Source: Trematomus loennbergii
Taxonomy: Eukaryota; Chordata; Actinopteri; Perciformes; Nototheniidae
Reading direction: 5' to 3'
DNA length: 64,000 nucleotides
NCBI GenBank assembly: GCA_012861695.1
Contig: JAAOOA010000026.1
Location: forward strand, 9,146,661-9,210,660
Shown: positions 9,095-31,867 of the stretch, piece after piece
Numbering within the stretch: the stretch's first letter is position 1
Layout of the letters: every line of letters starts with the position of its first letter
The notes under the pieces: generated by a model
Databases searched by the model: none
The model's input: only the letters and a program-made list of their open reading frames with translations
What the model was told of the DNA's origin: nothing
Translations under genes and position numbers: made by a program

Positions 9095-9137
9095 ATGCTG
9101 CTGCAGCTGCTCAGCGCTGCTGCTCTTCTCGCTTGCG
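9095..9137 (+). CDS. Receptor exon 1: signal peptide
   Basis: ATGCTGCTGCAGCTGCTCAG begins a 43-nt coding exon reading [14 protein letters not shown], a hydrophobic secretion signal. It is followed by the donor GGTAAGT. This ATG is chosen because the next exon (10480) continues in phase into a CTLD. A 5' UTR exon may lie just upstream. Confidence 0.75.

Positions 9138-31867: not shown

Follow-up and report, generated by a model that had tools for sequence, protein, structure and literature searches.

The mannose receptor family, which forms vertebrate CTLD group VI, comprises MRC1, MRC2, PLA2R1, LY75 and the chicken IgY receptor. In the available text of PMC8551360, CTLD4 of MRC1 is the domain that binds mannose, fucose and GlcNAc, and the receptor is internalised via the motif FENTLY. 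Another multi-CTLD protein, DEC-205-FUSE of Fugu, was printed in 2004 (Zelensky and Gready; PMC514892, available text): it has five N-terminal CTLDs, F5/8C and LCCL domains in the middle, and a C-terminal array of seven CTLDs in Fugu assembly v.3 or ten in an earlier assembly. It has about 2000 residues and small introns, had no cDNA at the time and was left in an unclassified group.

Here we analyse a receptor gene in a 64,000-nucleotide stretch of Trematomus loennbergii DNA (the whole stretch is referred to as the window). The gene encodes, in order, five CTLDs, a SUEL domain, an F5/8C domain, an LCCL domain, seven CTLDs, a membrane segment and a short tail; below, C, S, F and L stand for these domains, S-F-L for the core, and C1 to C12 for the successive CTLDs. 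We are rather confident that this locus holds the notothenioid version of a single conserved long-form multi-CTLD receptor (five CTLDs, S-F-L, seven CTLDs) extending from lamprey to teleosts, most likely a type I endocytic lectin. The preliminary description had called this receptor undescribed, which DEC-205-FUSE contradicts: likened by description, both have five plus seven CTLDs around F5/8C and LCCL domains. They differ in the SUEL domain, a word with 0 occurrences in the available text of PMC514892. In our comparisons, the Fugu sequence is represented by 56 proteins of this order from named ray-finned fishes. No later description of this architecture was found in the mostly open-access literature searched, and the available portions of PMC6400144 and PMC10253279 do not mention it; as far as literature searches show, neither the SUEL domain nor the constancy from lamprey to teleosts is in print, and the same applies to the endocytic-type tail motif and to the mannose-receptor register.

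Structure of the locus

The gene model was built by reading the plus strand exon by exon between 9095 and 31867 and then correcting the result against icefish orthologues. The final model has 50 exons, from an ATG at 9095 to a stop codon ending at 31867, with 6494 coding bases and 2167 residues (Table 1); all 49 introns are GT–AG, with a median length of 126 bases. It replaces a 47-exon first model, dropped since it missed the small exons 15, 25 and 48, which the icefish orthologues exposed, and in which some boundaries had to be moved. The hydrophobic N-terminus encoded by exon 1 was read by eye as a signal peptide; near the C-terminus, a hydrophobic stretch taken as the membrane segment was likewise seen by eye, followed by a short tail. 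The location, strand and domain series given in the preliminary description were confirmed, including the coordinates, the ATG, the stop codon and the succession of 12 CTLDs, SUEL, F5/8C and LCCL.

Table 1. Exons of the receptor gene and the features that they encode (positions in the window)
Feature	Position	Strand
Exon 1: ATG; hydrophobic N-terminus, read by eye as signal peptide	9095..9137	+
Exons 2–4: CTLD1 (QPD ... WND)	10480..11930	+
Exons 5–7: CTLD2; G-run frame break within 12594–12610	12499..13539	+
Exons 8–11: CTLD3; probable A-run break at exon 8 donor, within 13764–13778	13639..14855	+
Exons 12–14: CTLD4; T-run frame break within 14955–14969	14938..16087	+
Exon 15: linker	16179..16223	+
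Exons 16–18: CTLD5 (NPD ... WND)	16304..17827	+
Exon 19: proline-rich linker	17912..17944	+
Exons 20–21: SUEL domain (rhamnose-binding-lectin type)	18071..18477	+
Exons 22–24: F5/8 type C (discoidin) domain	19060..20022	+
Exons 25–28: LCCL; probable G-run break at exon 28 donor, within 20765–20779	20167..20773	+
Exons 29–31: CTLD6 (EPN ... WND)	20913..22016	+
Exons 32–34: CTLD7 and first part of CTLD8; break in frame within 23305–23319	22110..23733	+
Exons 35–36: remainder of CTLD8 (EPN ... WND); CA-run frame break within 24581–24600	24292..24781	+
Exons 37–40: CTLD9 (EPN ... WND)	25318..26202	+
Exons 41–43: CTLD10 (EPN ... WND)	27722..28314	+
Exons 44–45: CTLD11 (EPS ... WND)	28953..29750	+
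Exons 46–47: CTLD12 (EPN ... WND); breaks: A-run within 29849–29862, G-run within 30291–30305	29852..30398	+
Exon 48: stalk	30976..31035	+
Exon 49: membrane segment (hydrophobic, by eye), then first part of cytoplasmic tail	31139..31284	+
Exon 50: tail end with F-x-N-P-x-F motif (FTNPNF) and stop	31823..31867	+

The gene is flanked upstream by a KLHL-type gene on the plus strand (about 825 to 6320; BACK domain and Kelch repeats), which we take to be klhl8, and downstream by minus-strand exons of the AFF family at 36.8–45 kb (PF05110, PF18875; AF4 interaction motif), presumably aff1. In the sturgeon prediction P0116, the first ~100 residues match two KLHL exons of the window (identity 73% of 51 and 79% of 61 residues) before the receptor continues; this fusion indicates that the gene order is common to the window and sturgeon. 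Two other features were also seen: a (CA)66 microsatellite immediately after exon 2 (10634–10765) and, within the intron separating exon 40 from exon 41, a 220-residue open frame on the minus strand (26581–27243), which by eye resembles the end of a LINE reverse transcriptase and gave no Pfam match at E 0.01.

Domain architecture

A Pfam search of the joined exons, run on the protein of the 47-exon model with frame breaks written as X, recovered every domain claimed in the preliminary description and in the claimed order: 12 CTLD stretches (PF00059, Lectin_C; E 5e-230), SUEL at residues 725–801 (1.8e-14), F5/8C at 821–938 (2.7e-25) and LCCL at 951–1020 (7.6e-20). The main domains exceed the curated cut-offs; the remaining names (UL45, A33R, a second F5/8C model, Xlink and Rxt3) overlap called domains, Xlink and Rxt3 being below cut-off. 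These scores, together with the conservation of the series, exclude chance and show that the domain order is real. Two irregularities of the first reading were settled: an apparent frame break at the F5/8C–LCCL junction is explained by a small missed exon, and an alternative frame early in exon 33, which had been used to read CTLD7, was rejected because the orthologues support the first frame and place a 2-base difference further on.

The architecture departs from that of MRC1, MRC2, PLA2R1 and LY75, as had been proposed. The window receptor has in common with the mannose receptor family the type I multi-CTLD plan and an F-x-N tail like FENTLY, but it has 12 CTLDs instead of 8 to 10, four of them extra at the N-terminus, and an S-F-L core between C5 and C6. 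Neither a ricin-type nor an FN-II domain matched the window protein at E 0.001, and CTLD1 directly follows the hydrophobic N-terminus. Automatic annotation would make the receptor an ordinary mannose receptor (MRC1), and of the 61 relatives of exact order described below, 40 carry the name macrophage mannose receptor 1 or 1-like in one source or more (counted by hand from truncated names). That identity agrees with the type I multi-CTLD plan and with the register, in relatives, between CTLDs 5–12 and mannose-receptor CTLDs 1–8, yet it accounts neither for the 12 CTLDs nor for the SUEL, F5/8C and LCCL domains, nor for the missing ricin-type and FN-II matches, and we consider it highly improbable. 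The point has practical weight, as dozens of fish genomes list the receptor under the mannose-receptor name, and a correct name would separate two receptors. Expression studies accept such names at face value: in steelhead, for example, ten differentially expressed 'MCR1' homologues are discussed under macrophage activation and polarization (PMC7901748, available text).

LCCL occurs together with F5/8C in proteins of the ESDN/DCBLD type, and the closest solved F5/8C structures for the sturgeon and lamprey orthologues are those of neuropilin and factor V/VIII. In contrast to neuropilins, factors V/VIII and ESDN/DCBLD, the window protein gave no Pfam match to a CUB or A domain and has CTLDs flanking the core on both sides.

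Conservation among fishes and unity of the transcript

Relatives were gathered by word-limited protein searches yielding 166 distinct proteins, to which we applied domain models built in this analysis (domain E below 0.01). Among the matches listed, the exact order of five CTLDs, S, F, L and seven CTLDs is present in 61 proteins (1827–2192 aa) of the 166 fetched, which overturns the initial view that no vertebrate protein has this order. These 61 proteins comprise 56 from named ray-finned fishes (sturgeon included), P0036, P0044, P0047 and P0057, and one from a lamprey (Lethenteron reissneri); the rest of those fetched are incomplete or fused models, relatives with a different build, and proteins that have only F5/8C in common. 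The closest orthologues are those of the icefishes Pseudochaenichthys georgianus (P0001) and Champsocephalus esox (P0002), each 96% identical to the window protein (2025/2103 and 1998/2078 aligned residues, respectively). Differences from P0001 lie mostly in the N-terminal half, C1 being identical at 96/106 positions, C11 at 104/104 and C12 at 106/106.

Among the matches listed in the word-limited searches (120 of 132, 45 of 45 and 120 of 188), no protein of this order came from tetrapods, sharks, coelacanth or lungfish; the tetrapods were represented there by factor V and by a bird protein of the mannose-receptor type. Absence of the exact-order receptor from these groups is weakly supported by this result.

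A reading of the locus as two or three separate genes or transcripts, with breaks near 17.9 or 20.8 kb, would have in its favor the large size of the gene and the fact that the N-terminus of LCCL lies on a small exon that was initially missed. However, the joined order is identical in the 61 relatives just mentioned, the introns at the 17.9 and 20.8 kb places measure only 84, 126 and 139 bases, and four relatives (P0036, P0044, P0047 and P0057) have the whole protein encoded by 6495–6516 coding bases on contigs of 6835–8566 bases. Since such contigs leave no room for about 49 introns, we infer that they are cDNA and that one transcript spans the whole receptor in those species. Separate transcripts thus appear extremely unlikely, and the initial doubt about a single transcript is largely answered through these relatives.

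Frame breaks in the window copy

The preliminary description had listed the junctions as in-phase and GT–AG. The splice signals bear this out in all 49 introns, but the frame is broken at eight small indels relative to the orthologues, in exons 5, 8, 12, 28, 33, 36, 46 and 47; those in exons 8 and 28 can be avoided by using other splice sites. Eight small indels across 6.5 kb of coding sequence could be real mutations in a pseudogene or a gene decaying in this lineage, and the icefish model P0002 omits 25 residues in exon 33, which is also broken in the window, so that a shared lesion could be involved. Six of the eight breaks lie in mononucleotide runs of at least 4 or dinucleotide runs of at least 3, although such runs account for just 7.8% of coding bases (P about 6e-6), a bias that points away from decay, even if genuine slippage favours simple runs too. 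Outside the break sites, the reading frame contains no nonsense codon and 98/98 splice dinucleotides are intact; in addition, the P0001 model reads through all eight sites in a protein 96% identical to that of the window. The KLHL-type neighbour served as a control for assembly error: its Kelch exon changes frame beside a G-run, with Kelch_1 matches at 5473–5580 and then, in another frame, at 5582–5674. This break in a neighbouring gene favours assembly error, so we consider it likelier that the eight breaks are mostly base-level assembly errors, and a pseudogene unlikely.

Sugar-binding motifs and the tail signal

To score calcium/sugar motifs in 58 fish sequences, we took the second half of every CTLD and noted its first xP[NDS] and its last WxD. 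EPN is typical of a mannose-type and QPD of a galactose-type preference. The EPN/WND pair is well retained in C6 (EPN 51/58, WND 54/58), C8 (56/58, 57/58), C9 (58/58, 57/58), C10 (57/58, 57/58) and C12 (47/58, 57/58), and C11 has EPS in 38/58 and WND in 58/58. In the other retained sites, the motifs are QPD and WND for C1 (51/58 each), NPD (51/58) and WND (57/58) for C5, and QPD (49/58) and WDD (47/58) for C7, while the pair is not retained in C2, C3 and C4. Note that CTLD1 of both icefishes (P0001 and P0002) has WSD where the window and 51/58 fish have WND, which may weaken its calcium site.

The SUEL domain retains the YGR, DPC and KYL motifs, in common with the RBL domains of CSL3 and latrophilin. 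In the window, however, it has neither the acidic residue after the first cysteine nor the full loop before DPC, which we take to be rhamnose contacts. At the position of the acidic residue, CSL3 has E and the fish receptor Q or a variable residue, E being found in some other fish rows; the loop before DPC is shorter in the receptor than in CSL3, and a full FGDPC-type loop is present in 0/12 bony-fish rows. Amphioxus SUEL keeps both CSL3 features, the acidic residue and the longer loop. The missing residue and short loop make sugar binding by the fish SUEL doubtful. The suggestion that the receptor reads several glycan classes is therefore borne out in part: it agrees with QPD/WND in C1 and EPN/WND in C6, C8, C9, C10 and C12, but not with a SUEL domain devoid of binder features.

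The cytoplasmic tail carries the motif F.NP.[FY] in 58/61 aligned rows (window and lamprey included; FTNPNF and FENPHY, respectively), the exceptions being P0048, P0049 and P0067. The F-x-N part is found in 12/12 tails examined from non-vertebrate or other relatives: FDNPMY in the annelid, FENPLY in the brachiopod, FDNPIV/FDNPVV in the tunicates, FNNPIF in the coral, FDNPIS in the anemone, FSNILF in the gastropod and, without P, FDNALY in amphioxus and FENAGY in the hemichordate. The fish motif ends in F, not Y, and F may replace Y in such endocytosis signals. The conservation of an F-x-N-P-x-F motif points to clathrin-mediated uptake. FXNPXY is an established clathrin signal bound by the PTB-domain adaptors Dab2 and ARH (PMC2882754, available text).

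Altogether, the domain order, the retained EPN/WND motifs and the F.NP.[FY] tail support, at the level of sequence, the mosaic endocytic-type receptor initially proposed. We infer its topology in the membrane, its binding of sugars, the adaptor, recycling, the cell type and the class of cargo, and propose a model in which (i) glycoconjugates would be captured by those CTLDs whose calcium/sugar motifs are intact (QPD in C1; EPN in C6, C8, C9, C10 and C12), (ii) the F5/8C and LCCL domains, and perhaps the non-canonical SUEL domain, would contribute contacts with membranes, matrix or microbes, (iii) the F-x-N-P-x-[F/Y] tail would recruit a clathrin adaptor with a PTB domain, for instance Dab2 or ARH, and (iv) bound cargo would be delivered to endosomes. 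Judging from these motifs, the receptor probably takes up sugar-coated particles into cells, and a role in innate recognition is plausible.

CTLD order in deeper relatives

To compare CTLD positions, we built one profile per position; the 58 fish sequences used included neither the lamprey nor the window protein. All lamprey CTLDs (12/12) score highest at their own fish-profile position. With a centred score matrix, own-position counts are 11/12 and 10/12 for the tunicates, 10/12 for the gastropod, 9/12 for the hemichordate and 8/12 for the annelid; with the uncentred matrix, the counts are lower for the invertebrates. For lamprey, tunicates, gastropod, annelid and hemichordate, the observed score was reached in 0/100,000 permutations each. 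In amphioxus the CTLDs number 13–16 and mostly follow the order, and an additional F5/8C stands behind the third of them. Most bilaterian relatives tested thus retain the twelve-CTLD order.

By contrast, the core differs between groups: amphioxus has S-F-L, tunicates have LCCL together with two or three F5/8C, the annelid and the gastropod each have three F5/8C, and our domain models found no core domain in the hemichordate relative. Because core contents vary in this way, the five-plus-seven CTLD array looks older than the vertebrate core.

Several candidates were set aside. The brachiopod protein P0158 was rejected as collinear in the unshifted register (only 3/12, P 0.015), its array looking shifted by one, apparently without C1. 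The cnidarian proteins P0081 (coral) and P0156 (sea anemone) were rejected as collinear, their best-position calls being out of order; their layout reads C3 F C2 S C6 F F F, the start of which (C3 F C2 S) is common to amphioxus. Finally, the bird mannose-receptor-type protein P0166 has 22 partly fragmentary CTLD matches, some of which start C5, C6, C7, the rest not being clearly ordered.

Register with the mannose receptor family

Gene structure, domain content and order, conservation and motifs are observed at the locus and its orthologues; register with mannose-receptor CTLDs is observed in relatives, since searches of solved structures used sturgeon, lamprey, annelid, amphioxus and hemichordate relatives as queries. 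Four full-length chains, representing three different proteins (the IgY receptor, PLA2R and two LY75 entries), were compared. In 20/20 cases (4 chains x 5 queries), the best long alignment puts C6 on the second CTLD of the family chain. More specifically, with the lamprey, annelid and hemichordate queries the alignment extends to C12 close to where the PLA2R chain ends, at the eighth CTLD of that chain. C5 falls on CTLD1 of MRC1 and MRC2 (sturgeon, amphioxus), of MRC1 (lamprey) or of MRC2 (annelid). Sturgeon C8 aligns with 1egg and 7jub, which we take to be MRC1 CTLD4, the CTLD numbers of the chains being partly deduced from chain positions. As no core was detected in the hemichordate relative, the register there is not forced by the core gap.

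Some alignments are out of register. With the sturgeon query, the best score of LY75 CTLD1 is on C1, and the terminal CTLDs that remain after the long alignment go to C4–C5 (IgY receptor) or to C11 and C8–C9 (LY75). MRC1 fragments are also out of register, namely 5xts and 5xtw with P0091 and 5xtw with P0090, the fragments going to C9–C11 and C9–C10 in the hemichordate and one to C8 in the annelid.

We read these alignments as indicating that the mannose-receptor array corresponds to C5–C12, which would put the core after the counterpart of mannose-receptor CTLD1 and before that of CTLD2. The receptor looks like a longer and probably older relative of the mannose receptor, the change probably having run from long to short. 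One scenario, to which we give about an even chance, is that a twelve-CTLD receptor (five CTLDs, an adhesion/lectin core, seven CTLDs and an F-x-N-P-x-Y/F-like signal) existed in the bilaterian ancestor, and that the eight CTLDs of vertebrate mannose receptors are its C5–C12, in a form shortened by loss of C1–C4 and the core and supplied with ricin-type and FN-II domains; ray-finned fish would have kept both forms, lampreys the long form, and tetrapods the short form only. As CTLDs 5–12 are collinear with the mannose receptor, and the full set of twelve with proteins of an annelid, a gastropod, tunicates and a hemichordate, the origin of the family becomes testable. The mannose receptor family is clinically important, and the long form is a candidate ancient receptor lost in tetrapods.

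Derived receptors in pipefishes

Derived relatives from Syngnathus pipefishes account for 38 of the 166 fetched proteins (isoforms included; among the matches listed). They have 6–21 CTLDs, then S-F-L (with SUEL doubled in a few), then one CTLD, and some additionally have a galectin domain. The three Syngnathus arrays tested consist of a repeated C2-C4-C5 triplet, with one slot ambiguous. In syngnathids, the MHC II pathway is reportedly lost or rearranged (PMC10253279, available text); a link between this change and the derived receptors is speculation on our part.
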